A stretch of DNA of 64,000 bases from positions 29,922,740-29,986,739 of the forward strand of contig CAIIXF020000009.1 in the NCBI GenBank assembly GCA_903813345.2. Reading direction: 5' to 3'. This stretch comes from Owenia fusiformis (lineage: Eukaryota > Annelida > Polychaeta > Sabellida > Oweniidae). The first letter of the stretch is position 1, and each line of letters starts with the position of its first letter. A program made the translations under genes and the position numbers. Below the pieces are notes generated by a model that saw only the letters and a program-made list of their open reading frames with translations, did no database searches and was not told the origin of the DNA. Positions 23,801 through 64,000 of this stretch are shown here, in pieces.

Positions 23801-26800
23801 GCTTATTTGACAGGTAGATCATTTCTCGATCTTTTGAGAAATGTTTGGTTCAATGCAAATAAGATAAAGGCAGAGGCTGTCTATAACATGATGATAATAG
23901 CATTCTATAGAAATGCATTCATTCTGTTCATGGTTTTTATTAAATTTTTAAACCATTTGCACACATAAGTTGCATTATACTTTAAATGACTTCATTTGTT
24001 GTTATAATCTTGCATCAAATCACTCTACTCATTTTCCTATTTAAACAGAGGATGAAAATAGTCTATGAGAGAGAGCGATTATTGCAAGTTAATAGCGTTT
24101 CTAAATTAGTCAGTTTCCAATTATTCTTAAATTCTAGGGTTTTATCAGATTTTTTTGCAAATTAATTTTGAACTTATTTGATTTGGAATACTGAAATTAC
24201 CTTCTGAATATTGATAATATGTATGCTTTCTAGCTTTCTGTTTGGATCAATTAATATAAAAAGGGATAAAATCATAATTAATCTCATGTGAAAAGATACA
24301 TTTTGGACACTAATTCAAAATTTAGTTTGAAAGTAAGTTTTAGAACAATTTACTTACAATTATGATTTTAATTATCCTAGAATATATCCAAGTGTTATCA
24401 TTATATCCATTTGTATCTTTTTAGTCATTTTAATGAATTCAAATCAACTTTTATGAAGTCAGTCTTCAATTTTCAGCAAATATAATAATCATTTTGGTTC
24501 ATAATTGCTTTCGCATTGTTGTTTTATAGCTCAGTGTTGTAGTTCTTGGCATTGTTGTAATATTTGTTGGTGTTGTTATCGTCATTGTATTGTTTGTCTT
24601 TGAGTTGTTGTTGTTGTAATTGTCAGTGTTGTTGTAGTATCAGTGTTGTAATTGTCACTGTATTGTTTGTCTTTGAGTTGTTGTTGTAATTGTCATTGTT
24701 GTAATATCAGTGTTGTAATAGTCAGTGTTGTTGTTTCTCACTTGTATCAGGATGCTGGGCTGAAACATAATTTTGACAATTAGATGTAATTTATTTCATT
24801 ATTATCTACAATTTTAAAGAACAATTATAGTTTTATAAGTTTCCTTTAGTGAGAAGAAATGAAGAAAATACTTTAATTCCTCAAAAATGTTCATCAGCAT
24901 AGCAGAATTTGATAGAAACAGTTTATTTTACTATAATTGTTTACTTCTATTGTTTACAATCTGCAGTTCTACTAGATTATTTTCTATTTCAGCAATAATT
25001 TAACATATTTGATCATTTGTTTCAATTTAAAATCATTTATCATCATAAATTAATGTATTTTAAAGCATTATATTCATGTAATAATGCAGTATTAGATGAT
25101 ATTTACTAATTGTTTTAATGTTTTGTTTTCTATTTACCTCACTTCCTGTATGAGACAGTGAAGATGTTGCCATCCCTGTCTCCCACCACCAGCTGCCCCT
25201 CCTGGTTGATGGCAACAGAGTTAGGGCCTCTCACACCATCTTCCTTGGTCAGCAGGAAGCGCACAAATTCACCCCCAGGGGTCAGGAGATGTACCCTGTC
25301 GTTGTCAGTGTCTGCAACAATGATGTGATTGCAACTATCAATGCAGACACCACAGGGTTCCTTGAACTCTCCCTGACCACTGCCACGCTTCCCATATGAC
25401 AACACTTCATGGCCATCTTTGTCCAAGCCTTTGATACAATCAACCTGAAAGTCACTGACTATGATGACATCAGTGGTTGATGCCACATAGTGAGGGCCCT
25501 GGAATGTACCAGGCTTGGAGAGCGGTGTTGTGTCTCCAGTGGATGGATCCACACGGTACACTGTCTTGGTGGTGATATCACACACCAGTAGCTCACCTGC
25601 AGGGGTTGATGTTATACCCCATAGCTTTAGTTCAGCTTCAGGTCCTCTGCAGGTGATGTCCCGTTTGTGGGTCCCGTCTACACTGTAGACACTTATGATG
25701 TTGTTGTAGTTTGTCAATGCTAGATGGCCATTAGAAGCTAGTGTGACGTGTGAGAAGTTCTTTCCAAGATCTTTCACAAGGTTGTTCATTCTATTATATA
25801 TCTTTGTAGTTGAAGAGAAACTTGTTACTGCAAAATTGCCATTGGGAATGAGAGTTAGATCGAATATCCCATCTGATCGTAGATTCTTCTTCACCACTCT
25901 TGGCTCACAGAGTTCCAATTCCCTAAGCTTTCTGACCTGCAATCACATCAAATCAAAACATTAATTTATAAGTTAGCATCATTATTTTAAGTTCAAAATA
26001 ATAATTTGATTTTATCGAAACAAATATTATATTATTATTATAAATGAGTTTTGTTTGAATTTTCTAGACTAATTTTGTAGGAATTTGAATTGCAGATAAT
26101 CTGATAAGTTATTAGAAGGATAAAGATTTGCAGTTTACATAAGTTTTTACATTTAGACTATTATGCATTTGTATTAATTACATTTTATAATGAATTATAG
26201 TACATGTTTAAGTGCAAATGCAAATAAACAAATACAATTAAATAATTATGTTTTATATTACCTGATATTGGTTATAGCAGCACAAAATAATGTTATGTGT
26301 TACTGAATGGAATGTGCAGACGTAATGATGAGTTGAAAAAGTTGTTTGATAGCAAATTTTGGCGGCAAAATCATAATTTTAGGAAAAGGGATGAAAACAA
26401 AGTTTTGTTTACATTTTGTTGTATTGAATCTGTGTTGATTTTTTTAGCTGACAACCCTTACTAAAAAATAAGCTGGTCCAACCAGGGATTGCTGTCAATC
26501 AAACTAGGATAATATTGCTTTCTATATTTAGATTTTTGCAGACATTGGCCACCTGTTTATCTTATTAAAAATACATTCCCTTGCAAAAAATACTGAAAAA
26601 ACGAAAATTTGATTTTTTATAGTGATGGAGTATTGAGTAAATAATTGCAAATGAGCTCAAAACTTAATTTTGGATTTTACATCTGAATTACATTTAATCT
26701 CAAGATTATGCTTAATCAGGCATTAGTAAAGATTAATAATTATTAAATGTAGTGATTTTTGTAAGGGCAAATGTGCTTTGACTCTCCCATTATTAGTGTA

Positions 26801-29800
26801 GAAGTTGGCTTCAAGTCAAATCTTAAAACGCCTATAACTTTCTAAATACTTGAGCTAGAATGTTAAAATAAAAAGCATTTTGAAGCTGACAACATTACGC
26901 AAATTTTGTTTATTATTTCATTTTTCAGTTAATGTGACAATTGAGTGAAATTCCAAGTTATAATAGATCATTTTGCTTGCAGTTTTATAGGATCTGCATG
27001 TTGCTCAATATGTACTTGGATACTGTGGGTATGATTAGAAATTCTATTTAGAACTATCATAAAAAATTTAATGTAGAAATTGCTTGCTATGATATTTTTT
27101 TAATGAAAATGTGTCATTCACTTATTGTACAGTACATTTTTATTGTTAGCTTTATTTATTTATTTATTGTACTTCAAAAACTGAACTTTGGTTTGCCAAA
27201 GAAAGGATGGCCCATGTGTTTTGACAGGTACACCCCAGTTGTCTGAAATCCAGTTGTCCGAAACCCATGACTCCGAAAAATAAAGTCATAATTTACAGAG
27301 AAAGGGGGGACGTACTTAAGCTTAGGCCAGTTCCATGCCATGTATTTGGCCAAATTAATGGCATGGACGCATTCTGATGTTCATAGATCCCTCACTTTGA
27401 ATTGCATCCATTGCATGGCGTTACCAGAATGGCAGGAACGGGGGATTTATTTTACATTGAGATTCTTAAAAAGGTTAAATCAAAACACAATACATGTATA
27501 TATTACGGAACGGTTTATCTATCTTCTTCAATATCTTTTATATGGGCAAAATAAAATGAAACATTTTGAAACAGATAAAATAATTTAACGCATAGAACTT
27601 AAAATAAAACAGTATACATATTACATTGTCAAAATATTTAGTTGCATTTAATTTCTTAGTCTCTGTCTCTCATCAAATCGTAAAAGAACAAAAGATTCTA
27701 AACTTTATCAATTGGGATCAACTGGAAATGAAGACAGGCTGTCGCCATCACTTTATCCTTTTGAACTTAATCTCTATTTCTCGAACAGAGTACGTAAGTG
27801 AAGAATACGTTTTGGTTTCAAAAGATGTACACATCAACTTTACTAAATAAATGCCCACTGGCTTGGGAAAGCTATTTTCCCTTTTATGAACGCCCATCAC
27901 CCATTGGAAAAATGTTGTTCCCTCTCAAAAAAGGCCTATGGGCCATAAAGAAAATTGGTTTAAAAATTGTAGACCCCTATGTATGTTATGTAAACACCAC
28001 TTTGCAATGAGAATAACACAATTTTACTTTGTTTGTTTGAACATCTATATCTCCTGTATATGCATTTGTACTTTCATCTTTTGACAGTTTTATTAAATAC
28101 CAGCCCATAAAGGAATCGTTCAGTTGATGAAATTTACTCTCAAATGCACCCTTCACCAATGAAAGAGTGCTCGTTCATAGAGCTGTAAGCTGTACTTTTC
28201 GGATAACTGGGTTTCGGAGAATTGGGTTTCGGACAACTGGGTTGACCCCGTTTTGACACTATTAATCTAGAAAATCTGTTTTAATTTGGATCTACAAACT
28301 GGATGTAATCTACATAAGATGGATACATTCTAAAAGACTGCACAATTTGAGTCAAAATTCTCTTTTCAAGTACAATAGTATTGTATGACACACAGGGCAT
28401 ATTTTGTATGTTCCATGATGTGGAACATTGGAAATAGGTTAATATGAAATTAAACCAAGAGTTTATAATGCATTTAAGAAAGAAGGTCATTCATGGTTCT
28501 GAGAAAGTTGCAAAATCTCTGCACATGTTATTTACTGAGTACTCAAATAGAATATTCCAAACTGAAACAATTTGATTCCAGATGTGATATCACAAAAATT
28601 CAGATTTTAGATTGGTAAGACATGTTTTGATTACATTTATGTGTTTCACAATTTCTATTTATTTTTATTTATTTCTCTAAGACATGTTTACATTACATTG
28701 ATCTGTTTTACGATTTATATTTATTTTTACGAGGTGTCAAAAAACCATTGTCTAATTTCGAATTCTTTGAAGTCCATGCTAATTTATGTATACTGAACTA
28801 TTTCAATAATGAAAACACTTTTTGTGTTACCCACATATATTAAACTACATCTTTACCTTTGCTGGCTGCTGTAATGTATTTACTAATTCTTGAGATTGAG
28901 CTAGATCATTTTGAAGTTTCTGTACCTGCAATATAAAATCAAGGGATGAAAACTTGATGTAGCATTTTTCTATAATGTATATCTGTTTGATGAAAAACTA
29001 TTATTTTTGCAATACATGTCATTGAACCTGAAATCAAATGATTGATTACCTTGTTCTGTGGAGAGCCAAATTTATTATTAGATGATTGCAAGCTAATTTT
29101 TTTAAATCTCAAGTAGGTTCAGTGCCAACTTGCTTCAATTCTGGGGAGATCGTATCACTATGATGAAATGAATATGTTATGATTCTAATGATATATCATT
29201 TAGGGGCCGGGTCAATATTTCAGTTTCCATCAAAAAAATGTAATTAATTTTTGTAAAATCTTAACCCCCCCCCCCTTCCTCATCTAACGAAAGTCAAAAT
29301 GTTTATTCACTCCCATTGTGAGTCAAGTCAAAATGTTGATTTGCATTCAGTGTAATATTAAGTACAACCTAAGCATACAATATCTGCTACATATCAATTT
29401 CTCTTACATATCTAATAGTATACTGGTATTTAATGATCATACCATTTCAGAAGACGAAACTCCAGGAAACTAAAAATCAATGTCTGTCACCTAATTTTTT
29501 AATTCCATTTTACACCCTCCCCTTAACATAATTGATTATGTTTTTTGATGGACATTGAAATGTTGACCTGGCCCCTTATGGTCTAAGGGAATATCCAGAA
29601 AACATTTTATAAATTAAACTTCTGTGATGAATAAATGCAAGGAATAGATAGACCATTCAGTTATTATTTTCTAATAGTAGCTCATTTTAGAGGGATTTCA
29701 CATTAAATGAAAGGTCTAGGTCCTTTGATAAAATACTTATTATCAAACTGATCATATTTCAATGTAGAGATATGATATATGGAAGGCATTCATTGATCAG

Positions 29801-32800
29801 TTCATTCAATTGTCCATCTATCATCCATTCATCTTTATGGGCAATAGCAGCAATACCCATTGATAGATTTGCCTTAACATTTTATAAGTTGCTGGTTTAA
29901 AAATGACTGACATTTTAGTGTCAATTTTACAATATTTTATGTATAACATATACGACTGTAAAAATATGTTTTAAATGTAAAAACATTATATAAGATAATG
30001 ATTAAGGTAGAGCTTCAATGTTGACTGATTTATTTCTAAGAGTCAGATTTTCTTGAAAAAAATCAAGGTGAAAGCTACTGTATAATGATAAAACATGTGA
30101 AAATTAGAAAGATTGACCATTTAGTTATTTCTAAAAAAATGTTTTAATTTTACATTGGTCTCAATGGGAAATTCTTTTTTATCTCATAATTTTTTTTTAT
30201 TTCATAAAAAATTGCATAATTCAGATTTTCGTCAAAAATTGTGATTATTCTATGAGAATACAAAAGTGTTTAAAAAAGTATTTATATTTATTATGAAAAT
30301 TCACCATCCAGATCTTGAGAAAAAATAAAATAACTTATAACTGAATATTATGAATCAGTGGAACAATATTATTATTCTATCGTATTACACGGTGCCAAGA
30401 ACCAAGAACCAGGCATAATATGACCGTCCAAAATCTATTGCAATACTTTCCCCTCCTCCTTTTGCATTTGTTGATATTTTTCTACATTTTTTAGGTTATT
30501 ATTTGCCATTAACAGCTTATCACCTTAGTTTTCGCCTTAGAGTAATGATCAAGAGCATACCAATAAAGAATGTTTGAAGTACTGTTGTGACAATGTGAAT
30601 TGAATGAGGCTCAAATGGCACATCTAAATACAAAAGATATTGTAAACATTTCATAAAATACCTCTGCCTCTGATTTTTGCTTTAATTCTGTCAGCTCATC
30701 TTGCAGAGTTTTCATCTTGGAGGAATGATCAAGAGCCTGCAATTAAAGAACGATTTGAAATATTTCAGAAATCATTCATATATGTTGAGGCTGAAACACA
30801 AACATTTATATGCAAGACAGAAACTATTCTAAAACATTATATTTAATACCTCTAACTCTGATCTTTGCCTTTCTTCTGTCAGGTTATTATTTGCTGCTAA
30901 CAGCTCTTCCTGTCGAGTTTTCATCTTCGAGGAATGATCGAGAGCCTGCAATTAAAGAACATTTTGAAATATTTCAGGAAATATTCATAGTGTTGAGGCT
31001 GAAACACAACATTTATATGCAAGATAGAAACTATTCTTTAACATTTTATTAAATAACTCTGCCTCTGATCTCTTTTTGACGTCTGTCAGTTATTATTTAC
31101 TGTAAACAGCTCATCCTGTAGAGTTTTCATCTTGGAGGAATGATCCAGAGCCTGCAATGAAAGAATGATTGGAAATATTGTAGAAATCATATGAATGCAT
31201 TGTGTTGGAGCTCAAATTGATCATGTGGATAGAAACTATTCTAGAACTTTTCATTGAACACCTCTGCCTCTGATCTTTGCTTTTCTTCTGTCAGGTTATT
31301 AGTTGCTGTTAACAGCTCATCTTGCAGAGTTTTCACCTGGGAGGAAAGATCAAGAGCCTGTAATTAAAGAATGATTTGAAATATTGTAGAAATCATATGA
31401 ATGCATTGTGTTGGAGCCCAAATAGATCATTTTGATGTAAATCATTATATATTTCATTAAATACCTCTGTCTCTGATCTTTGCTTTACTTCAGTCAGGTT
31501 ATTATTTGCTGTTAACAGCTCTTCCTGTAGAGTTTTCACCTGGGAGGAAAGATCCAGAGCCTGCAATTAAAGAATGATTTGATATTTTGTAGAAATCATA
31601 TGAATGCATTGTGTTGGAGCTCAAATTGATCATTTAGATGGAAACTACTCTAGAACATTTCATTAAATACCTCTGTCTCTGATCTTTGCTTTTCTTCTGT
31701 CAGGTTATTCTTTGCTGTTAACAGCTCTTCCTGTAGAGTTCTCACCTGGGAGGAAAGATCCAGAGCCTGCAATTAAAGAATGATTTGAAATATTGTAGAA
31801 ATAATATGAATGCATTGTGTTTGAGTTCAAATGGATCATGTAGATAGAAACTATTCTAGAACATTTCATTAAATACCTCTGCCTCTGTTCTATGCTTTAC
31901 TTCTGTCAAGTTATTAGTTGCTGTTAACAGCTCTTCCTGTAGAGTTTTCATCTTGGAGGAATGATCTAGAGCCTGCAATTAAAGAATGATTTGAAATATT
32001 GTAGAAATCATATGAATGCACAGTGTTGGAGCCCAAATAGATCATTTAGATGGAAGCCATTGTATATTTCATTAAATACCTCTGTCTCTGATCTTTGCTT
32101 TTCTTCTGTCAGGTTATTAGTTGCTGTTAACAGCTCTTTCTGTAGAGTTTTCATCTTGGAGGAAAGATCCAGTGCCTGCAATTAAAGAATGATTTGAAAT
32201 ATTGTAGAAATCATATGAATGCATTGTGTTGGAGCCCAAATGGATCATGTCAAAACTATACTAGAACATTCCATTAAATACCTCTGCCTCTGATCTTTGC
32301 TTTACTTCAGTCAGGTTATTATTTGCTGTTAACAGCTCTTCCTGTAGAGTTTTCACTTTAGAGGAAAGATCCAGTGCCTGCAATTAAAGAATGATTTGAA
32401 ATATTGTAGAAATCATATGAATGCATTGTATTGGAGCTCAAATTGATCATGTCGATAGAAACTACTCTAGAACATTTCATCGAATACCTCTGCCTCTGAT
32501 CTTTGCTTTTCTTCTGTCAAGTTATTATTTGCTGTTAACAGCTCTTCCTGTAGAGTTTTCACCTGGGAGAAAAGATCCAGAGCCTGCAATTAAAGAATGA
32601 TTTGAAATATTGTAGAAATCATATGAATGCATTGTATTGGAGCTCAAATGGATCATTTAGATGGAAACTACTCTAGAACATTTCATTGAATACCTCTGCC
32701 TCTGATCTTTGCTTTTCTTCTGTCAAGTTATTATTTGCTGTTAACAGCTCTTCCTGTAGAGTTTTCATCTTGGAGGAAAGATCCAGTGCCTGTAATTAAA

Positions 32801-35800
32801 GAATGATTTGAAATATTGTAGAAATCATATAAATGCACAGTGTTGGAGCCCAAATAGATCATTTAGATGTAAGTCATTATATATTGATAGAAATTATTCT
32901 AGAACATTCCATTAAATACCTCTGTCTCTGATCTTTGCTTTTCTTCTGTCAAGTTATTATTTGCTGTTAACAGCTCTTCCTGTAGAGTTTTCACCTGGGA
33001 GGAAAGATCCAGAGCCTGCAATTAAAGAATGATTGGAAATATTGTAAAAATCATATGAATGGATTGTGTTGGAGCTCAAATTGATCATGTCGATAGAAAC
33101 TATTCTAGAACATTTCATTAGATACCTCTGCCTCTGATCTTTGCTTTTCTTCTGTCAGGCTATTATTTGCTGTTAACATGTCATCTTGCAGAGTTCTAAT
33201 CTTGGAGGAATGATCAAGAGCCTGCAATTAAAGAATGATTGGAAATATTGTAGAAATCATATGAATGCATGGTGTTGGAGCTCAAATGGATCATTTAGAT
33301 GGAAACTATTCTAGAACATTTCATTAAATACCTCTGTCTCTGATCTGTGCTTTTCTTCTGTCAGGTTATTATTTGCTGTTAACAGCTCTTCTTGTAGAGT
33401 TTTCACCTGGTAGGAAAGATCCAGAGCCTGCAATTAAAGAATGATTTGAAATATTGTAGAAATCATATGAATGCATAGTGTTGGAGCTCGTGTGGATCAT
33501 TTAGATGGAAACCATTGTATATTTCATTAAATACCTCTGTCTCTGATCTTTGCTTTTCTTCTGTCAGGTTATTATTTGCTGTTAACAGCTCATCTTGCAG
33601 AGTTTTCATCTTGGAGGAATGATCAAGAGCCTGCAATGTAAGAATGATTGGAAATATTGTAGAAATCCTATGAATGCATTGTATTGGAGCTCAAATGGAT
33701 CATGTAGATAGAAACTATTCTAGAACATTTCATTGAATACCTCTGCCTCTGATCTTTGCTTTTCTTCTGTCAGGTTATTATTTGCTGTTAACAGCTCTTC
33801 CTGTAAAGTTTTCACCTGGGAGGAAAGATCAAGAGCCTGCAATTAAAGAAAAAGAATGATTTGAAATATTGAAGAAATCATATGAATGCACAGTGTTGAA
33901 GCCCAAATAGATCATTTAGATGTAAAGCATTATATATTTCGTTAAATACCCCTGTCTCTGATCTTTGCTTTTCTTCTGTCAGGTTATTATTTGCTGTTAA
34001 CAGCTCTTCCTGTAGAGTTTTCACCTGGGAGGAAAGATCCAGAGCCTGCAATTAAAGAATGATTTGAAATATTTTAGAAATCATATGAATGCATTGTGTT
34101 GGAGCTCAAATTGATCATTTAGATGGAAACTACTCTAGAACATTTCATCGAATACCTCTGCCTCTGATCTTTGCTTTTCTTCTGTCAGGTTATTATTTGC
34201 TGTTAATAGCTCTTCCTGTAGAGTTTTCATCTTGGAGGAATGATCAAGAGCCTGCAATTAAAGAATGATTTGAAATATTGTAGAAATCATATGAATGCAT
34301 TGTGTTGGAGATAAAATTGATCATATCGATAGAAACTATTCTAGAACATTTCATTGAATACCTCTGCCTCTGATCTTTGATTTTCTTCTTTCAAGTTATT
34401 ATTAGCTGTTAACAGCTCTTCCTGTAGAGTTTTCACTTGCGAGGAAAGATCTAGAGCCTGCAATTAAAGAATGATTTGAAATATTGTAGAAATCATATGA
34501 ATGCATTGTATTGGAGCCCAAATGGATCATTTAGATCGAAACTACTCTAGAACATTTCATCAAATACCTCTGCCTCTGATCTTTGCTTTTCTTTTGTCAG
34601 GTTATTATTTGCTGTTAATAGCTCATCTTGCAGAGTTTTCATCTTGGAGGAATGATCAAGAGCCTGCAATTAAAGAATGATGGGAAATATTGTAGAAATC
34701 ATATGAATGCATCATGTTGGAGCTCAAATTGATCATTTAGATGGAAACTATTCTAGAACATTTCATTAAATACCTCTGCCTCTGATCTTTGCTTTTCTTC
34801 TGTCAGGTTATTATTTGCTGTTAACAGCTCATCTTGCAGAGTTTTCACCTGGGAGGAAAGATCCAGAGCCTGAAATTAAAGAATGATTTGAAATATTGTA
34901 GAAATCATATGAATGCATTGTGTTGGAGCCCAAATAGATCATTTTGATGTAAATCATTATATATTTCATTAAATACCTCTGTCTCTGATCTTTGCTTTTC
35001 CTCTGTCAGGTTATTATTTGCTGTTAGCAGCTTTTCATGTAGAGTTCTCACCTGGGAGGAAAGATCAAGAGCCTGCAATTAAAGAATAATTTGAAATATT
35101 GTAGAAATCATATGAATGCATTGTGTTGGAGCTCAAATGGATTATTTAGATGAAAACTATTCTAGAACATTTCATTGCATACCTCTGCCTCTGATCTTTG
35201 CTTTACTTCAGTCAGGTTATTATTTGCATTTAACAGCTCTTCCTGTAGAGTTTTCACCCGGGATGAAAGATCCAGAGCCTGAAATTAAAGAATGATTTGA
35301 AATATTGTAGAAATCATATGAATGCATTGTGTTGGAGCCCAAATAGATCATTTTGATGTAAATCATTATATATTTCATTAAATACCTCTGTCTCTGATCT
35401 TTGCTTTTCCTCTGTCAGGTTATTATTTGCTGTTAACAGCTTTTCATGTAGAGTTTTCACCTTGGAGGAAAGATCCAGAGCCTGCAATTAAAGAATGATT
35501 TGAAATATTATAGAAATCATATGAATGCATTGTGTTGGAGCTCAAATGGATCATTTAGATTGAAACTATTCTAGAACATTTCATTGCATACCTCTGCCTC
35601 TGATCTTTGCTTTACTTCTGTCAGGTTATTATTTGCTGTTAACAGCTCTTCTTGTAGAGTTTTCACCTGGGAGGAATGATCCGGAGCCTGCAATTAAAGA
35701 ATGATTTGAAATATTGTAGAAATCATATGAGTGCATTGTATTGGAGCTCAAATTGATCATTTAGATGGAAACTACTCTAGAACATTTCATTGAATACCTC

Positions 35801-38800
35801 TGCCTCTGATCTTTGCAATTAAAGAATGATTTGAAATATTGTAGAAATCATATGAATGCATTGTGTTGGAGCTCATGTGGATCATGTAGATAGAAACTAT
35901 TTAGAACATTTCATTGAATGCCTCTGCCTCTGATCTTTGCTTTTCTTCTGTCAGGGTATTATTCACCTGTTGACTTTTCAACTGATTAGTGTTAGGCATT
36001 CAGGATGAAAAATTTGCAGTATATAGGATCACCCATTGGTGGGGACATGTTGTACACATTTGTGTTCTTGTTAAAGAAATAATTGTACAAACTACAATCA
36101 TGTGATCAGGCTCAATCTGTAACATTTAAATTAATGAATCTATTCTAAAGCATTTTGTATGAATATACCTTTTCCTCTGATCTCAACTTTTCTTCTTTCA
36201 AGTTACTATTAGCAATTAACAGCTCACTCTGTAGATTTTTCTTCTCAGCAGAATGATCCAGAGCCTACAATGGATTCTAATATGATACATGACGTCACAC
36301 TAGCTAAAACAATTGATTTACTGGTCTATATTGGAGTATGTATGACCAATAAAATTCATAGATGCAAAAAATCATGTTTCTTGTCTGTTTTATCATATTA
36401 GAATTGTAACAAAGACCTCGATTTTATGATTTATGTCAAATATATGACCTCAAAATTTATTCTGGCCATTGCCAAAGACCTCAATCGCTACGCGATTTCG
36501 GTATTTTAACAATGACCAGAATAAAATTTTCAGTCATATATTACGCCATAAATCATAAAATCTCGGTCTTTATTCCTTAAATAATGATTTGAAATATTGT
36601 AAAAACCAAACTTGTGTGGATTAAGGCTCAAACTACAATATTTAAAAGCATAAGACTTCCTATATATTTTCGAACATTTTGCTAAATACTCCTCCCTCTA
36701 ATCTTCTATTCTTTCGTTTACTTCTGTCAGACTGTTATTAACTATCAATAGCTCATCATGTAGAGTTTAAGAAATTGCTTAAATAGAAGAAATGTCATTG
36801 TCAAATATTCCATACCTTTGCCTCAGATTTTTCTTCTAAATCCTTCAGTTTTTTATGCCCATAAAGTAACTGATAAGTATAATGTGGTGGATGACGTACC
36901 ATTCAAATTAGAGTGATGGGCTAACATTGCAATGAAATGAGTAGAAATATTAAGTTTAAACCTCTAATTTTTTGTCTTCCAGCATCTGTCGGGACCTTGA
37001 TAGTTGCTGTGTAAGATCATCAATGTTTGATGCCTTCTTTTGAACCTGGAAAAAATGCTTCATATGTCATGCATTTATTTCATAAATTTTTTGAGAGAAA
37101 TAACATAAACCCATTGTCATGTCGATACATTGTACTATATTAGAAAGCTATGCTTAAAGCAAACTTTTTGGCAGCCCTTTAACTGTATTTAGAGCTTGAT
37201 ACTGCATGCTGAAAGGTACATTTAAAAAAAATTAAAAAAGTAGGCTACATTTAAAAATAGACTTTTAATGTTTTTATTTATTTTATTCATTTTTTAACGT
37301 GTAATGCCTATATTATTAACCTTTTCATTGGCAACTTCCAGTAATTTCTTTGTTTCTTCAAGGTTATTCCTAAGTCTGTCAATCTGAAATAATAATCACA
37401 TATAGTGTTTAGGTTTCCAATAGAAGGATTTGTTCGAATTAAAGTTTAATTTTTGACACTTAAAACAGTATACCTTACCTGAAATCTAAATCTAAATCGG
37501 GTACTCAGTATTGCGTTTCTAGTTATAAACTTAGAAGTATGATATTTGTATTTGGTAATTGAAATTTAATTTTTATCAGTGTGAGACGACATACAGAGAG
37601 GACAGCTAAAGATGAGTTTAAAACTTAAAAAGATATTAAACTTACTGTATTTGCCTTTAATTTGGCAAGCGCTTAATTTCAATAATTTGGCAGATCAAAT
37701 TAAATTGCCAATTCGAATTGTTACTCGGCACAGTATGCATATTCAGTGTATTTCTGTAATTTACTTGAAGAACCTAAATTCAATTGATGCCAATATAAAT
37801 TAGTGTGCTCACCTCCTCCAATGCTGGGTGAGTCCTTAGAAGATTTTCATATTCTGCTGTCATCCCTTCCTTTTTATATGCTAACAGCAAAAGTGTTAAC
37901 GTAGTAACGTCGTTTGGTGATTCATCAACACTCTTTTCTAGAACCTTAATTGCTTCTTTATTGTCACCAGTCTTTTGGAGGGCATATCCAAATGTATTCA
38001 TAGCGTCTATGTTCTTACTGTCAAGCACTCTGTTCTTCAAATTATCCAAAAAGGGCTTGCTGATACCTTCATCTTTGATGTATATATTGCACAGAATGTG
38101 CAATATCAATTGCATTGGCTCGGAGGTTATGTATGTTTCATTTGCTTTTTTCAAGTGTTCCTTTGCCTTTTCTTGATTTTTCATCAGTATATAGGCGATC
38201 GCATTGTTGAGATCAGATGGATCATATAGTGATGTCTGTCCTATCCTCTGTTCCACTATTTCTTGTGAATTTTCTACTTCAATAGCGTAAACAAGTGGTA
38301 TAGCAGTTTGGTAGTAGCGCAGAATAAGCTCTGAACTGAAGGTTTCAGGATCAGTGCCATCTTTGACAAGGAAGCTTGGTAATAATTGACCCTTTGACTC
38401 ATCTACTTGTCCATTGTTCTCTGTGTAACATCTTAGTCTCAGTTCTGTTGCATTGGATAGTATCATCTTCAGGTGGTGAAGCGCGTCATCCCCCACAACA
38501 TCTAACATCCTAACGTCCCATATGCAATCTTCACTGCTGTTTAACAAATGAAGTAGGTTATTGACTATAACACTTGGCAAGCGGTATATCTCTTTCTTGA
38601 CATGAAGAGATGCTTTTTCTATTATGTCCCTTTTATACTTGCCATCATACAATTTCTTTATACAGGAGTGCTTAACAAAGTCTTCTTGCAGCTGCTTTTT
38701 TATAAGCTTTAAAATTGTTTTTCTTTGAGCTTCATTCTCTTTGAATCCTTTCTTCAATTCCTTTTCAACAGATTCATCTCCAAATAGTGTTGTAAAGTCT

Positions 38801-41800
38801 CCTTTGAAGAAATATAATTCCTTTTCCAGATCATTTTCTTTCATTTCACGATAGTTTTCAATGAATGCAGCTTTTGTGTTTGTCAGTCGGAAACTGTTAT
38901 TTTGAGGACTGACATAATAGGGTGTTTTGTTGGCATTTGGCATCAGTCCATCAAATGAGATTCCCTGTTTTATATTTACGTAACTTCTTAAATCAAGGTA
39001 CCAGTCCTTTGTTTTGTCATTAAGGTCAGATTCATTTAATGTATCTATAGACATAGCTGGGAGGACAGTTTCGCCAAATGCTAGGAATTTGAGGTGAAGG
39101 ATCATAACCATCTTGGTTATGGTTTCTTTGTATTCAGGCTGCATTTCCAAATCATCTGAGTTCTGCACCACAGCAAATTCTACATCAGAGAAAGGTGTTG
39201 TTTCTTTTCTTGAGAATGACCCAAACGCAATTAGGGCAAAGTCATCCTTATGGAAATCGAGGAGATCCAAACTCTGCTGTACCAAACTTGATATGAATGT
39301 TTTCATTTCTTGAAGGATCCACTTAAAAATTTCTCCAATTTGTTTTATTCTCTCTGCTTCGCGTTCTTTCCTTTCTTCTTTTGAGATTCCAGATTCGTAA
39401 CAGTTACAGGACTCGTTTCTGTCGATCTTTTTTAAGATTTTTTTCTTTAATTTACTTCGTATTGCTTGAAGTTCATTTTTATTCTTTTTCTCATCTTCCA
39501 AGTACTTAATTGGAATGTCTGTTTTAAGACAATGCTTGAAGAAAAGTTTGAGAGCAGATCTTTTTTTCTTTCCATATTTAGATAACTCATCATTCAGTTC
39601 ACCTCCACACTGAACTATTCCAGTTTCATAGATGCTAACAGCTTTCACATATTCCATTGGGTTCATTTCTACTTCACCAATCTCTTTATGGAGATTACCA
39701 AGTTCCCTCAGCAGCTGCACATGTGTTTGTCTATTACTTCGCCATTCCTCTTCAGATACCTCCCCTGGATTCTTTTGTAAATTTTTGTTTATTGATGGGA
39801 TTTCTTTAAGTGACTTGGTTATGTCAAGTTCTCTTTTCTTGAGTTGGTCAAGCTTTAGTGTTATGTCTGGATATTGTTTCCTTAACATTTGGATGTATGT
39901 TTGTAATTGGTTGATTGTAGATACATTTTGAGACACCTGCAATACATGCAGTATGTTTTACACAGCTTTCAATTGAAATGCATGTCATAATACAATGATA
40001 TAATAATTAACCTATTCAGTTTTGCTAAAATGAGGCAACACTGTATTACTACCTGTTTATGTCTCATAATGTTCAAACTGACTAGTGCGGGGGACTTATA
40101 GTGTTAAGTTAAAACATATGTTTCAGTAGTATTTGCTTCTCTAATGTTTATGTCAATGCATTAGGAATGAGCATTTTTTGCTATAATTTGCAATAAATTT
40201 TATGCACAAAACAGCAATATCTTGCAAACGGAATGCCTCTGTCCAAAATAAATTTGTGATTCAATAATTTTTTCTTTAGTTGATTTAATTTTCAAAGCTA
40301 GAAAACAAAATTCCAATGTAAATTTAACATGGCACAATCTATTAAATTTTTCCATCTGAAAATATTTCAGTGGGTGATGCAGGATGCTACTGGGTCAGCA
40401 TAACTTAAGTTCCAGACATTAGATTTTAGTCATATTTTTTATACTGTATCACTATGATGTTATCATTATCCATGTGCGATATGAAGAGGATTGAGCGACT
40501 GGTTATTACAAGATAAAAAATTTCTCTTACCAACCCAAAATGTTCTTTTTAGCTCACATGGTGAGCTTTTGTCCGTCCGTCTGTCCATCAACAATAGTGG
40601 CACGTTTTAAAACCTCTGTCGATAGGATTCCTGTTTTAAGTTATTTCTGTTCAACATCAATACAGAAAACTCCCCTATGACTCCTGGTTCAAAAGCTCGC
40701 CTATTTTCAAAATGGCCGCCATTTTTGTCTCTCGAAATTCACTTTTGACTGGCACGTTTTAAAACCTCTGTCGATAGGATTCCTGTTTTAAGTTATTTCT
40801 GTTTAACATCAATACTGAAAACTCCCCTATGACCCCTGGTTCAAAAGCTCGCCTATTTTCAAAATGGCCGCCATTTTTGTCTTGCGAAATTCACTTTTGA
40901 CCCATTTCCTAGCTTTACAAATAATTTCAGGTGTCCTACATTGTAAAAATCTGTGTCAATGTAAAGAGTAGATATATGAAATAATTTTGTTACAAAAAAT
41001 CAGCGAAAAATTATATCTATTTTTTTATTTTCAGCCATTTTAGTTAACATTGATTTGTCCATCTGACTTGTGAAATCCACTTTTCCGTCAACAACAGTGG
41101 CACATTTTAAAAACTCTGTCGATAGGATTCCTGTTTTAAGTTATTTCTGTTCAACATCAATACAGAAATTTCCCCTATGACTCCTGGCTCAAAAGCTCGC
41201 CTATTTTCAAAATGGCCACCATTTTTGTCCCGCGAAATTCACTTTTGACCTATTTCCTAGCTTTACAAATAATTTCAAGTGTCCTACATTGTAAAAATCC
41301 ATGTCGATGTAAAGAGTAGATGTATGAAATAATTTTGTTACGAATAATCAGCAAAAAATTATATCCATTTTTTTTATTTTCAGCCATTTTAGTTAACATT
41401 GATTTGTCCATCTGTCTCGCAAAATCCACTTTTGGACCATTTGCCTTAAACCCTCTGTCGATAGGATTCCTGTTTTAAGTTAATTTTGTTCAACATCAGA
41501 GAGATTTCGCACATAAGTGAAAGTACAACTTATACGTATACGTATAGTTTAAAGGGTCATGTCGAACTATTATATTTACTAAAATCAATTTTAAATTGTA
41601 CTTAATGGAACATAACAATTCCCGATATAGAAAAGCTCCATCAACTAGAGACTGTGAATACACTGTCATCTGCACGTGTAGATTATGCACATTATAATTA
41701 AATGCTTGCTTCCGTGTCCTAGTAGTTGTAGTGTATTATAAACACGACCCTTTAAAGTGAGTCATGATCCTTTAAAGTGAGTCGTTACATAAACAAGTTG

Positions 41801-44800: not shown

Positions 44801-47800
44801 AACATAGCTGTTTTGGGGATAATTTTTTTATTGCAAATTAAAGCAAAAATGCTCATTGACATAGACTTTAGTTGCTGTTTTCTAGTTTGGTATCAAATTA
44901 AAATGAAGTATAAGCATAATTTTGATAAGAAAATATGAACTCCCCATGCAGACAGATCGCATTAAATTACATTTGTATGATGCGAGACTTGACATTCAAC
45001 GGAAAACTAGGAACATTTTGTCACCCATATAGCAAATTATTTTTTTTACTGCTTAATGAATGGCGAATGACAATACTTGAAACACAACTATTCTTCGAAC
45101 TTATGATTGGACATAAGTATGATGTGTACTTTAATGTAGTAAAGTAAAAGTAACATCATACTTATGTTTGATCATAAGTTCAAATAATAGTTGTGAGAGT
45201 CATCGATAATCAAGGCTTTTGAATAATATAAATGCTGTTTTAAGTAGGTTTCATGTATGCCAATAATTTCTCAAACTGTGTAAACTGAAAACAATCTTTA
45301 ATCCTTAGAATATTCTCTTGGAGGAATTTGCCATGTAAATCCAATGGTGTGGTTCCAAGCAGATTTTGAGATAACAGGAAGGTAAATCTTTAAAACTCAC
45401 CTTATTGGGTTGTTTTTGTTTTTATGGCCAATAAGGTTTGCATTAAAACTTTACCTTCCTGTTATTGTATGATTATCAATGATTTATTTCCAGCCCTCTG
45501 AAGTTTGAAAAATAAAAATACCTGGCTGTTAATCCATCCATCCTTCAAATTGAGAAATATTTTTAGGGGATTATATGGTGCAATCTTATAGTCAATAAAA
45601 TGTTTTAAAGTGTATTTATGTTTTTTAGATGAAAAACATAAGCGAAATGTATTTAAAAACTCCCCCAATTCATTCTACAAACAACTCCTCCTCCTTTCTC
45701 ATCTACATGTAGCAAGTTAAGACTAACTTAGAGATGACAGGCATGTGTGGCTATAATCATTCAAAATGTCTCCTAATAGACTAGATGCGAGTAGAAATGA
45801 TCTTGATTTACATCATTAAATATTCAAAATTCAGTCAAAGTGATGTCATATTTGAAATGTACATGTAAAAATACATCTAAAAATATGGTTACGAAAATTG
45901 TTTATCAAATTTGAAAATTTAATATTTTTTGAAAATGTGACTTCTTATTTGGGTTGATTCCCCATAGACTCCATATTACAAAATCACAAATAGTGAAATA
46001 TCTTTTCTTGTATTGGACGTATAACATTTTCTTTTACTGGATATATAAGCACAAATGCCAAAGGGAAGGGTGACTAAAATCTTTAAAGAAACCCAACAAG
46101 AAAAGCAAACTGTAAGTGTAAATCTGTCATAAGAAAAGTAGACCCTATATATCCCAAAACCATAATCTAACGTGAAAAGAAACATTGTCTAACATCCCCC
46201 TCCCCCCTCCAATCGAGAACCAATATCACAATCCAGGACCAGAACACCAAGGGACATTTCATTCATACTGAAGTCATTACAATACATGTTGAAGAAAAAT
46301 TGAAAAAATTGATAGTCAATACTCATAACATCAAAAATAGTTGTAGATACTAGTACTAATAAAAGATAGAGTATTCAGTCTAAAATGATGTGGGATAGAT
46401 AAAATCCAGTCTCGAAGTCCATAGGCATACTTTAATTTGCATATCTATTCGATACATAATGGCTACATGTATATGAAAATTGAACCACTAAAACCTATGT
46501 AATTTAAGTAATTAAAGGGAACTTTCTACTATACCCGCCATGCTATCTGACCCGAGCGAGACACCTGGTGGTGAAACTGGTAACTACCTACTCGCATTTG
46601 CGTTATTATCAAAATTTTAAATGATGTGTTTTCAAGCTCAATGAATATTAAATCTGACAAAATTGATGGATGTGAATTTGGTTAAGCTTGATTCAATAAC
46701 AATTCACTATAGCTCTTGGAACTTTTAAAAGATAATTCAAAGGGAGTTCTTACATCATTCTGTGCTCTTTTTTCATTATCTTCAATGCATCTCTTGTGTT
46801 CCTCTGCTAGTAGCCTCAGTTCCTCCTCCTGTTTTTTGGCCTCCTCTACCCTCTTTGTTGCTTCTTCTATCCTTTGTTTTTCGTCCTCTACCCTTTGTCT
46901 TTCCTTTTCTGCTATCTTTTTTGCTTCATCAGCCTTTTTTCTTTCTGTCTGGAAATGTATTTCATCTTCTTTTGATTGATCCTTCACGTTCTGTAGTAAC
47001 TGTGATACCTCTTCATCCAAAGTCTTGAGAGAAAGGAGCTGAAGGTAAAATAGCATATTGTTTGATTAGAAAGGCAACACATTCACATATATAAAAACAT
47101 CATACATCTAATCTAAACTCAGAATTTTTGCATAATTTTTCTTTTTTTCATTCATAGAATTTATTTTACAAATATATAAAGTACATTAACATTATACACT
47201 TGTAGTGGCTTTGCTGAAGGCATCATCAGCCACTTGATTAATAATTGCAGGGTGAAGAAAAAATTAAATATGGACTCAAGAGTGAAGTGAGTGGTAGCAG
47301 GGAAACCTACACATTTGCACATTTTTCTAAAAGTGATGCAGTGAGCTTGAGAATTTTCAAATTCATGGATTTAGTTAGGTTTGAAATCTTTATAAAGAAA
47401 TAATTCTACTTTGCCCTTCTTGTGTTTAAATTAAGAATAACCAAAATTAAGAAAGGCTTAATTGTTTTTAAACTCTTCTAAGAATGGAGCAAGAAGTATA
47501 CAGGAACAAATAACATGAATTGTTGTTTCAGTTGCATGGCCATAAGAACATGCAGGTGAAGTAACGTTTGTAAAATTGAGGGAGTGTAGGTGTGACTTAG
47601 AAATTAAGTCACAACGAATATTGTTAAAGATAATTTCTTGATTTCTTGAAATATTAAGTTCAGAGGATCGAATAATTGAATTGGATGAATCTTTCTTTGC
47701 CCTTGACTTAAATATACTTAAATTTTCAGCTTCTTTGAGGGGCTTTGAAAGGGTATTCCAATCCATCATTGATTGTAAAATACAGGATCGATGTAAAAAT

Positions 47801-50800: not shown

Positions 50801-53800
50801 GCCTACGTGACCAGTAACTCGAAGTATTGGCAGATTATAGTTCATGGTCCAATGAGGAAACCCCAAAATCTCCGAGATATGACTGATAGTGTCACTCTAA
50901 TATTTGCCCAATAATTGAATCTCCCCAATTTCACACGGTACTAACTCTCTGGGACGTATCGAAACCAAAACACCCCGCAAAAATGTTAATTTGAATTTCA
51001 AATCTACCCTGTCTTTGGAAAATCGATGATTGTGAGTCCCATACTACACCCTTTTTTCTTCAAACTTGTTCCATTAAAACCTTCACAGAAATACCTTTCA
51101 GTCGAGACATTGCTTTTGTTTACAAAGTCCCTCGTTTTAGCGGCGCTTTGGTCCCCAGATGTGAGAAGTTGCAATTTTTCAGAGATTTCAACCAAAAGCC
51201 TTGATATATAACCAGTTCTTTTATTATTCACTTTTTCAGAACACTGTGTGGAGGGTAGGTGAACTGCCAAGATAGGAAAATATACAGTCCAATCTAACAT
51301 ACAGTATAGCAATATTAGCAATTAGTGATCCATTTGCTATATTTCATTTACTTTGGACTGGACAAATGTCTTGTTACCATATTGTCAAAATACATATTTA
51401 GAGGCAGACAATCGATTTATAGAAATTGGAATGTGTATGCCACCTGCCAGTTGGTTTATTGGTAGATTAGTTAGTTGCTTGATTGGTTGGTTGTATAACT
51501 GGTACATTGAGTTGGAGGTCAGTTGGGCATTTTGAGGTATAAAATGAAAAAATCAAATTCTTAACCCTGGTAGGAACGTTAGGTACCCAGTCACCAGGCT
51601 ACTCAATTACGCAGTCACTCGTTGTTTTTTTAAATCTCCTTCATGAAAATAATAATTTTTAAGTGATTAAAAACAATTAATAGCTTTTATGAGACAATAA
51701 TTTTAAACAATATTCATTTAGTTTGATAAGCAACAGAAATGTTGAACAATGAAATAGTCTTATGTTTAAATGAATTTTCTCTTGGTACTCACCTTCAACT
51801 GCTCCACCCCTTCAGGCACTTGACTTTCGTTTTTGCATTCGGGACAGCTGACAAGTCCATTTAATGATTTATTTTCTTTAATGAGATCTTGAATGCACCC
51901 CAAACAGCAAATATGCCCACAATCTAATGACTTTGGTATTTTTGCAGTGTTTTTACACGACACACAACAAATACCTCCTTCTTCCATGGTGTTATTTCTT
52001 GTACTGCGCTATCTCAAATTATATCATATGACTTTCAATCCAAAGTCCAGTATTGTTTTTGCTAAGTTTCTTATCTAAAAACGTGTCAATAAGAAGGTTT
52101 GTCTCAACATGGGCTTTCAACCCATGGTCTCAACAATCAATTTTAATGATTGATAAACATGAATAGTAAATTGCTAATTATTACTATTGTAGCGATTGAA
52201 GTACATGTACTGTACCTGACCATGATCTAAAATGTTCCAGACACAATGCAATATGAAAAGTTGTTACTTCTTTATATTTAATGACTCGATTTAGAAGAAA
52301 AGTTCAAGGTTTCATTTGTCAGGGCAGTTTTATATTTTAAGACTTGATTTTATGACAGATGGGTACAGTATGTTTCAAAAAATTCAATGTATGATCCAAC
52401 TGAGATAAGCTTCATTTTCAATAATTGTATAATTTATTTAGCTCAGGAGAATTTAAATGCTGCACTCGTGCAAAATCTGGAAACAATGCATACATTGTTA
52501 AATCACCCTACAATTCATTGATTCCTTGGGTAATCCTTTAATGAACCAAATATTAAAGGCTCATATTTTATCTTACACTTACAGTTCAGTGTGATAGCAA
52601 GTGACCAATCCAATCCAGAGAGAACAAATGAGACAACAATCCAAATAACTACAAGGTTGGATGATGAGGCACCCAAGTTTGACTCAAGTCGATATGTTGT
52701 TAATATAAATGAGGACCATGATGTCAATGGAACTTCCATAGAGACCGTAACAGCTACTGATGAGGATGGCACAATTGTAAGAGCTTAACACATATATTTC
52801 TTAATTTTCATAATAAATGATAAATTTAACTGATAAATGACTTGGAGCCTTTTCCCCCTTCTATAAAGTAAAACCAAATTCTGCTTGGCTGATTTGTGTT
52901 ATGCAATGAAGACATCATTTTTTGAAGGTTTCAGTAATACACAATACAGGCATCACATCATGTTCATAGTCAAAAATGAGATGAAATGGCTATCTGAATA
53001 ATGCTACTGGCATCCATATACATGTACATGTAGAATGTAACATCCATGTGTTATTTCCAGGGCAATCTAGTGTATGAAGTGGTTGGGGATGTACCAGCGC
53101 CATCTTTCTTCTGGGTGACCCAAGGTGGCCTTGTTTATATCAGCCAGCCCCTTAAGGGGCATTACATTGACAAATACTATGTAAGTACAATGAGTTATCC
53201 ATCTTATATCTGTACAGCTCCCTACCCATTACATGCATCACAGTTGGGGAAGTAAAGGCATACTTTTGATGTGAGACTAACCTGTACCAAGATCCTGGGA
53301 CCAAGATGACCTGTGAAATCGCTGTTATTAGCCCTCTTCTACTTTGAAAAATATTTTTGTCTGAAGCAGTTATATATCAGCTTTTAATAGCCATAAGGGT
53401 CAAGTTGTTTAACAAGACTTATTTCACACCATGCACTACCTCTATTATATTGTTTATGGGTTTAAAATTATAACTCTTGACATGCCAAAATTAGTCTTGT
53501 CATACTGACAGTTACTGAACTATTTAAAGGTTGACTGGTAAAATTATGTCCTTAAAATATAGGTTACATGTCTTAATGACTTGAAAAACATAAGTCGATA
53601 TTAATTTCATCACATATTTTGCTGCCTTTCCCTCTGATTTTATTATTCGATGATGTCATACAGGGCAGTTTCCAAATAATATTGACTAACCATTCATTTT
53701 ATTTCATTGCTCTTTAATCAAGTATGATTAGTACTGTAAACCAATCATTATATATATATATGGTATACTGTCTCATAATATATTTATTTCTTCACTTAGC

Positions 53801-63121: not shown

Positions 63122-64000
63122 TCCCATCGAACAAAGTTCGGAGGGATATAGGGAACGCCTCCGTCCGTCCGTCCGTCCGTCCGTACGTACGTACGTCCGT
63201 CCGTCCGTCCGTCCGTCCGTCCGTCCGTCCGTCCGTCTGTCCGTCCGTCCGTCCGGGCAATAACTCAAATACCGTTGGCCCGATTTTGTTCATATTTTGT
63301 ACACATATACCCTATGGGAGTAGAAGTTCTGCTCAAAAGCCGATTTTCAAAATGGCCGCTCATTTCAAAATGGCGGCCATTTTAGTGCCGATTTTACAGT
63401 AATTTAGGTGTAATATGTAAAACTGTAATAGCAATATGTTTTAAATGTAAAAAAATTATAAAGGACATTAATAATGCTACAAATGTAGATTAAAGAAGCA
63501 CATGGCAGCCATCTTGAAAAATGGCGGCCTTTACTCGTCATTTTACGATTTTTGCTGTAACTCAAAAAATAGTGGAGCGATTTTGTTCATATTTGGTATG
63601 TGAATACTATAAGCATTGCACACTGTCTAAAGACACTTTTGGTAGAAGGTGGCCATTTTTCAAAATGGCCGCCATTTTAACATATTTTACTATAACTCGA
63701 AAAGTAGTGGAGCGATTTTGTTCATATTTGGTATGTGAATACTATAAGCATGGCACACTGTCCTATGACACTTTGGGTAGAAGGTAGACATTTTGAAAAT
63801 AAAATTGAAAAATGGCCGCCATTTTAACGTATTTTACTATAACTCGAAAAGTAGTTGAGCGATTTTGTTCATATTTGGTATGTGAATACTATAAGCATGG
63901 CACACTGTCCTATGACACTTTTGGTAGAAGGCGGCCATTTTGGAAATTTTTTTGAAAAGACCGCCATTTTAACGTATTTTACTATAACTCGAAAAGTAGT
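63122..64000. mobile_element. TCCCATCGAAC element, second copy, running off the window
   Basis: Begins TCCCATCGAACAAAGTTCGG, as at 47811. It contains a (GTCC)n microsatellite at 63160-63256, then repeated units of about 150 bases with AATGGCCGCCATTTTAAC and AACTCGAAAAGTAGTGGAGC (about 63550, 63690, 63840, 63985). ORFs through it are repeat shadows. Confidence 0.75.

Follow-up and report, generated by a model that had tools for sequence, protein, structure and literature searches.

Several known systems resemble parts of the locus reported here. LRR genes of Tetrahymena carry tandem arrays of 90-bp exons, the exon number varies between inparalogs, and unequal crossing over was proposed for them, as described in the relevant part of PMC6564038. 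Chicken BG genes form a recombination-shaped multigene family in which many small repeat exons encode a heptad coiled-coil region (PMC4046983), and the reference list of that paper names BG size polymorphism caused by heptad regions of different length. For the HNWD genes het-d and het-e of Podospora, PMC1805685 describes concerted WD repeats in variable number, the d-a and b-c loops being under positive selection. In this study we analysed a stretch of 64,000 nucleotides (nt) of the annelid Owenia fusiformis, positions 29,922,740 to 29,986,739 of the forward strand of contig CAIIXF020000009.1 (assembly GCA_903813345.2). This whole stretch is called the window, and positions below refer to it. 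It contains a tandem array of 96-nt exons which belongs to a predicted gene encoding a RING finger, a nucleotidyltransferase (NTase), a rod and an NHL propeller. We think it probable that the gene represents a RING-ligase-like family with a length-adjustable stalk, made from the exon array, and a diversifying NHL tip.

Tandem Repeats Finder (TRF) gave a period of 206 bp with 24.8 copies and 87% matches at 30692-35816, and on the minus strand 25 head-to-tail units of exon plus intron were read from 35687 to 30662. Both open frame and splice sites are intact in 24 of the 25 units, of which 23 have exons of 96 nt and one has an exon of 75 nt. Units u1-u22 (31262..35687) form an uninterrupted series of 22 intact exons, each of 96 nt in phase 0 and flanked by AG and GT, and the introns between them are about 110 nt long. 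The next unit, u23 (31056..31151), is broken by a 1-nt deletion and a stop and has lost the GT donor; u24 (30850..30945) is an intact 96-nt phase 0 exon with AG/GT, and u25 (30662..30736) is an intact in-frame exon of 75 nt, which is 21 nt or one heptad shorter. A diverged intact 96-nt exon, u0 (36169..36264, minus strand as all the others), lies just outside the array at its 5' edge. The number of 24 intact exons given in the initial annotation is correct, with 23 of full length, in an array that has 25 units including the broken one. Over the 22 consecutive units the mean difference was 8.8% in exons and 10.5% in introns, nearly equal as the same annotation had stated, and its term near-identical is generous for units which are similar with an identity of about 90%. 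Within the exons of u1-u22, silent sites differed by 15.1% and replacement sites by 6.9%. A higher-order repeat of two units was also considered, as TRF scored a period of 409 bp slightly above that of 206 bp, and it was rejected because the distance between units in the window array is independent of their separation (lag).

Counting each variant of the window array once, we found 18 silent, 27 replacement and no stop changes, where 18.8, 44.5 and 5.4 were expected at the intron rate. The deficit of stops (0 vs 5.4 expected) had a P of 0.025. The silent share of 18/45, compared with the 29.8% expected among non-stop events, gave a one-sided P of 0.09 and is not significant by itself. Purifying selection on the array exons is thus weak, which speaks against our reading of the array as protein-coding. 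In 12 pooled arrays, with those of fewer than six units excluded, there were 384 replacement, 205 silent and 2 stop variants, in units that had been pre-filtered for open frames. Overall, constraint on the array exons is present but mild.

Queries of the module and of the NTase, NHL and RING exons were run against the same 498-Mb genome, and all locus counts are lower bounds. Arrays of this module were present in at least 13 stretches of the genome, three of which are unplaced contigs and could be second haplotypes. We scored 255 full-length module copies in the 13 stretches, excluding 27 partial array copies: 244 were exactly 96 nt, seven had in-frame length changes and four had frame-breaking ones, while 239 carried AG and GT or GC and six contained a stop. 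The number of intact units per stretch was 6 to 36, several stretches having been fetched in part. RING, NTase, array and NHL were found in that order on one strand at at least eight places, namely the window, C9:30.09, C9:18.40, C7:36.67, C7:36.81, C7:36.95 and C7:37.06 Mb and contig C413. At C7:36.16 Mb, C9:28.22 Mb and on contig C29 the NTase, array and NHL were present with no close RING among the matches listed, and contig C29 starts just before its NTase. C7:36.44 Mb and contig C39 had arrays only, with no NTase or NHL assigned among the matches listed. Matches to the NTase exon amounted to at least 68 pieces at E-values up to 0.001, many of them at 25-30% identity. Three distant NTase paralogs (L028, L029 and L030, 42-45% identical) had no array of 190-210 bp in the 7.2-7.5 kb downstream, which was the part of these genes covered.

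These counts bear on two other explanations of the array. The first is an intronic minisatellite, whose units would be unused relics of one duplicated exon. Introns almost as similar as exons, the weak purifying selection and the persistence of the broken u23 would all agree with it. However, 237 of the 255 copies are intact over the 13 stretches, and the exon length is 96 nt in 22/22 consecutive units of the window whereas the 21 introns between them show five lengths. Exon length and phase are also the same in arrays whose exons differ at about half of the bases, and the array lies within a gene with conserved ends, so we regard the minisatellite as very unlikely. The second is an assembly artefact which inflated or collapsed the unit number. 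At C9:28.23 Mb (L011), two blocks about 2.5 kb apart share an ordered series of six units and are protein-identical, which represents a recent segmental duplication or an assembly duplicate. Such exact large duplicates, and the fact that the window array belongs to a set of similar loci, would favour an artefact. On the other side, no two intact units of the window are identical (the smallest exon distance is 2%), which argues against simple stutter, and the same design occurs in 13 stretches. An artefact is therefore highly improbable in our opinion.

The gene model was built from splice sites and open frames read in the flanks of the array in the window, and it is predicted from sequence alone. 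On the minus strand, every exon is phase 0 and a multiple of three, with AG/GT throughout except u23, and the predicted protein has about 2,016 residues when the broken u23 is left out. Its domain order is RING, helical segment, NTase with TPR, rod and NHL propeller. Exon 1 (51793..51987, 65 codons) has the start codon and the RING finger (Pfam zf-C3HC4, 26.8 bits, cut-off 21). Exon 2 (46754..47038, 95 codons) encodes a charged, presumably helical or coiled-coil segment which belongs to no Pfam family, and exon 3 (37813..39936, 708 codons) encodes the predicted NTase, DUF294-like, together with TPR. Three small phase 0 exons of 63 nt (37321..37383), 84 nt (36962..37045) and 54 nt (36816..36869) contribute to the rod, and another one of 69 nt (28857..28925) comes after the array. 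The last exon (25139..25936) has 265 codons and the stop codon, and encodes a six-bladed NHL propeller (PF01436, 44.2 bits, cut-off 20). RING, TPR and NHL were above the curated Pfam cut-offs and DUF294 was just below.

Pfam matched no B-box in 47039-51792 or 39937-46753 when both introns were translated in the three minus frames with X for stops; the scan returned just one sub-threshold unrelated family, and a strongly diverged B-box could escape it. Because no B-box was found between RING and NTase, the gene is TRIM-NHL-like and is not a TRIM gene by the classical definition.

The rod module has 32 residues and is encoded by one 96-nt phase 0 exon. A length of 32 residues corresponds to nine core positions with a spacing of 4-3-4-3-4-3-4-4-3 (three heptads and one hendecad), so the helix could continue across the module borders. 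Considering the rise of a helix, each unit would lengthen the rod by nearly 5 nm. The hydropathy of the window array had its helical-band peak at 3.556, which is 32/9; the peak of the C9:18.40 array was at 3.2, not 3.556. We consider that the rod is likely a coiled coil, and the phase 0 coding exons and rod-like product which had been read from the array earlier are both supported. Some results do not favour the coiled coil: the hydropathy moment at 9/32 had a permutation P of 0.10-0.13 (three consensus modules), other harmonics were as strong or stronger, and the one PDB sequence match for the rod was SAS-6 at an E-value of 0.29. Exon 2 and the array look helical by composition only.

All units are symmetric exons which are freely skippable, and the broken u23 must be skipped or the protein ends there. 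Both features would suit a splicing choice as in Dscam, where one or few units enter each transcript and the array gives isoforms and not length. But the units, with a mean exon difference of 8.8%, are too alike for clearly different isoforms, and such a choice, judged by unit similarity, seems unlikely to us. In the adjustable-stalk reading, which we prefer, the array would be spliced in full into the rod mRNA.

The gene at C9:18.40 Mb, whose NTase exon is 55% identical to that of the window, has its own array of 31 intact units with a period of 192. Its units are mostly AAEHSSKVQSMENELAKSHEDMEKMRNQHAAE and close variants, compared with ALDLSSQVKTLQEELLTANNNLTEEKQRSEAE in the window, and the array of contig C413 is of the same type as that of C9:18.40. 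The two array types differ at 46-52% of exon bases, units within an array at 6-14%, and exon length and phase are shared. Since the units of a distant paralog agree in length and phase and differ in sequence, the comparison of units indicates that the array design is old and its homogenisation is recent. The initial annotation proposed that the array was made or homogenised recently by unequal exchange; recent homogenisation by exchange is retained, but the array itself is no recent invention, because about 31 units that agree in length and phase occur in a paralog with a 55%-identical NTase exon.

For 144.4 of 224 units the nearest relative was in the own array, where 21.7 were expected. Separate homogenisation was found in the window (18.3/24), C9:28.22 (32.5/33), C9:18.40 (30/31), C413 (12/12) and C7:36.44 (9/10). 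As a point against it, the units of C39, C7:36.81, C7:36.63 and C29 were mostly nearest to another array of the C7 group, and homogenisation is not uniform. Such cross-array resemblance in the C7 group would be expected if loci had recently been duplicated or had exchanged units.

The arrays of the window and C9:30.09 Mb were compared unit by unit, using replacement (dN) and silent (dS) divergence per site. Units u18-u22 correspond one to one, and in the same order, to five units from the 3' edge of the array at C9:30.09, with distances of 2.0-5.5%. Beyond these, both arrays have a broken unit of the same kind and a 75-nt unit, and a 75-nt unit is also present at the 3' edge of the C9:28.22 Mb array. 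Interior window units had no reciprocal pairing with C9:30.09 units. A shared edge with an unpaired interior suggests that the core was turned over, as unequal exchange predicts. Core units of the window had a dS of 0.37 to the nearest C9 paralog, and the NTase exons had 0.53. The edge units of the window and C9:30.09 had a dS of 0.085 and intron difference of 3.0%, compared with the same 0.53 between the NTase exons of both genes. That the edge units are closer than the NTase exons suggests a later exchange between the loci.

Whole-unit differences were seen between related loci, in agreement with the earlier proposal that phase 0 coding exons let the unit number change without a frame break. 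Between C7:37.07 and C7:36.81, whose NTase exons have a dS of 0.019, one whole unit is absent and the frame is unbroken. Contig C39 was also compared with the 34-unit set at C7:36.15 Mb: 13 of 14 C39 units pair in order, 14 C7 units fall between two neighbours of the series, and a 1.95-kb stretch from the last units into the 3' flank is 97.9% identical. The C39 array is split by a 14-kb insert, and the sequence past 21 kb is unmatched to C7:36.15. The contig may come from another haplotype of the C7:36.15 Mb locus, with an array of fewer units, or equally well from a paralog. As allele and paralog are indistinguishable here, we rejected this pair as proof of allelic length variation. The 14-kb insert has an overlap of about 5 bp at its ends (contig C39, L014, L016, L017, L019-L021), and another repeat starts near 22.4 kb of C39, with copies 97-99% identical at many places of the genome.

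Twelve NHL exons were compared, comprising the C9 trio, the C7 seven (one on contig C29) and the C413/C9:18.39 pair; the loci are 25139-25936 of the window, L044 and L047-L056. Within groups, dS was 0.048-0.111 and dN was 0.078-0.128, and dN/dS exceeded 1 in 24 of 25 pairs (range 0.93-2.00), whereas between groups it was 0.37-0.64. In neutral star-tree simulations, the observed ratio of replacement to silent differences per site (pN/pS) was 1.68 in the C9 trio against a mean of 0.87, and 1.26 in the C7 seven against a mean of 0.85, each reached in 1 of 400 runs. The C7 seven had 23 hypervariable codons, where the simulated mean was 5.4 and no run of 400 reached the observed number; the excess was not clear in the C9 trio (9 vs 5.1, reached in 26 of 400). 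Over ten paralogs, with columns of fewer than 8 of 10 residues excluded, at least five residues occurred at 23 of 265 NHL codons and 152 were invariant. At the 23 hypervariable codons pN was 0.49-0.55 and pS 0.21-0.28, and elsewhere both were 0.04-0.06.

The NHL model (predicted local distance difference test, pLDDT, 91.5) has 24 strands in six blades, and its best structural match was the NHL of TRIM2 with a TM score of 0.81. Of the 23 hypervariable codons, 19 fall in D-A or B-C loops, both located on the same face of the propeller, and the remaining four each occupy position two of strand A, immediately after a D-A loop. In the opposite loops 0 of 52 positions were hypervariable (Fisher P 1.6e-5), a contrast weakened by the fact that the loop classes were assigned by the analyst from predicted secondary structure. 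As a control, seven genes present in both sets had at least five residues in 12 of 251 NHL columns compared with 12 of 681 NTase columns. On the predicted model, the NHL propeller varies fast on one face and has a near-uniform framework. The recent duplicates C7:37.06 and C7:36.81 have 4 differences over 714 aligned NTase positions and 38 over 266 NHL positions. Silent divergence is greater in the NHL (dS 0.066) than in the NTase (dS 0.019), so that replacement or conversion of the NHL exon is probable. Incompatible sites in the NHL cluster with distance (P 0.013 and 0.048).

An ordinary regulator of the TRIM-NHL type, for example an RNA binder, could also be considered, in which the NHL signal comes from low silent divergence by conversion together with relaxed constraint. 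The best structural matches are the NHL domains of TRIM2/3/71, Thin and Brat, some solved with RNA. For a given gene pair, dS is much lower in the NHL than in the NTase, which fits conversion, and the clustering of incompatible sites is what recombination predicts. However, relaxed constraint would not confine the variability to one face and would not lift dN above dS in 24 of 25 pairs, and 152 of 265 codons give the same residue in all ten paralogs. We consider the ordinary regulator possible but rather doubtful, and the diversifying tip remains our preferred reading.

A separate cluster of about 10 kb at C8:2234200-2244100 (L057) is made up of numerous NHL fragments arranged head to tail, and several of them are disrupted by stops or frame breaks. 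They are possible relics of a pseudogene cluster or possible donors of variation by conversion.

The 708-residue NTase-TPR exon was modelled by AlphaFold2 from 18 paralogs with a mean pLDDT of 82.8; L013, which has one stop, was left out of the alignment. With VIA-align 2 the model matched DrrA (6yx5) at a Z score of 23.6 over 312 residues (3.9 A) and the Escherichia coli glutamine synthetase (GS) adenylyltransferase (GS-ATase) at Z scores of 20.6 (1v4a, 303 residues) and 18.8 (3k7d). These matches covered 293-312 residues, and the next match had a Z score of 11.7. The motif G-X11-D-X-E (G239, D251, E253) was invariant in 18 of 18 aligned paralogs, and the nucleotidyltransferase motif given in PMC8097203 is G-X11-D/E-X-D/E. 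Thus the modelled NTase has the GS-ATase/DrrA fold. Two observations point the other way: Foldseek ranked TPR proteins at the top and DrrA in fourth place, with an E-value of 1.4e-3, and the DUF294 score of the window's own exon was 19.8 bits, below the cut-off of 21. Within the C7 group, the NTase dN/dS was 0.13-0.37, which means that it is under constraint. The NTase would perhaps transfer AMP to a protein, and uridylyl or RNA transfer is also conceivable.

Other features were observed in the window. The intron between exons 2 and 3 has a tandem repeat at 43585-44667 with a period of 90, 12 copies and 94% matches, and a TCCG microsatellite of 24 copies lies at 63160-63255. Cadherin-like coding pieces were found on the plus strand at about 14.5-20 kb and 52.6-55.5 kb; Pfam gave a sub-threshold match of 22 bits in the former and no match in the latter. 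The RING/NTase/NHL gene may sit inside the introns of a cadherin gene of the opposite strand.

Taken together, both rod length and NHL tip look adjustable from the sequences compared. We propose that, as exon and intron repeat together at phase 0, unequal exchange would add or remove whole modules with the frame kept, and would also homogenise the arrays. The hypervariable NHL face would bind diverse ligands, the RING and NTase might act on the bound ligand by ubiquitylation and perhaps by nucleotide transfer, and the stalk length would matter for this. An immune or self-recognition role for the family can only be inferred. A more far-reaching proposal is an intracellular recognition repertoire of an animal, parallel to the fungal HNWD system, in which the hypervariable NHL ring would bind foreign or allelic ligands, conversion would keep the framework and reshuffle the face, the array would set the reach of the rod and vary by unequal exchange, and the RING and the transferase, as a third class of animal AMPylase, would mark the ligand. 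We put this forward tentatively, as a possibility with rather low probability.

The family would be of interest for several reasons. Population long reads could be used to measure how long the stalk of a probable E3 ligase is. One gene shows three evolutionary modes, with constraint on the NTase, concerted change in the array and fast replacement on the NHL face. An unrecognised repertoire would be present if the NHL face serves in recognition. Known animal AMPylases were counted as only Fic and SelO in the part of PMC8097203 (2021) concerned, and if the NTase transfers AMP it would be an animal AMPylase beyond these two.

In the open-access full-text literature, which was the scope of our search, we found no RING/NTase/NHL gene with an exon array or with a one-sided hypervariable propeller. 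Like the TRIM-NHL proteins TRIM2, TRIM3, TRIM71 and Brat, the predicted protein has a RING, a helical segment and a C-terminal NHL propeller, but it differs from them in that no B-box was found, an NTase-TPR block is inserted and the rod comprises about 760 residues. DrrA/SidM and the GS adenylyltransferase are bacterial and, unlike the NTase here, are not joined to RING or NHL.

Tandem arrays of small exons that vary in length and keep the frame have precedents in the LRR genes of ciliates and the BG genes of chicken, and the setting in a RING/NTase/NHL family was not encountered in the open-access literature searched. As described in PMC6564038, the Tetrahymena LRR genes share with the present arrays units of exon plus intron with fixed exon length and phase, and units of different genes are mixed; compared with that description, the present case is in an animal, with 96-nt phase 0 exons, a helical module and about a dozen loci in one multidomain gene type. 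In chicken BG, according to the relevant part of PMC4046983, the exons are of 21 nt and one heptad and belong to the cytoplasmic tail of a membrane protein, whereas here the modules are of 32 residues in a RING/NTase/NHL protein. In HNWD, as far as PMC1805685 describes it, one face of a beta-propeller diversifies at the same two loop classes as here, but one WD array behind a NACHT domain is both homogenised and diversified, whereas here the stalk is homogenised and a separate NHL varies, and the dN/dS above 1 on one face was measured here between paralogs and not alleles. Tetrahymena LRR and chicken BG genes are the nearest structural parallels for the array, and HNWD is the nearest functional parallel.

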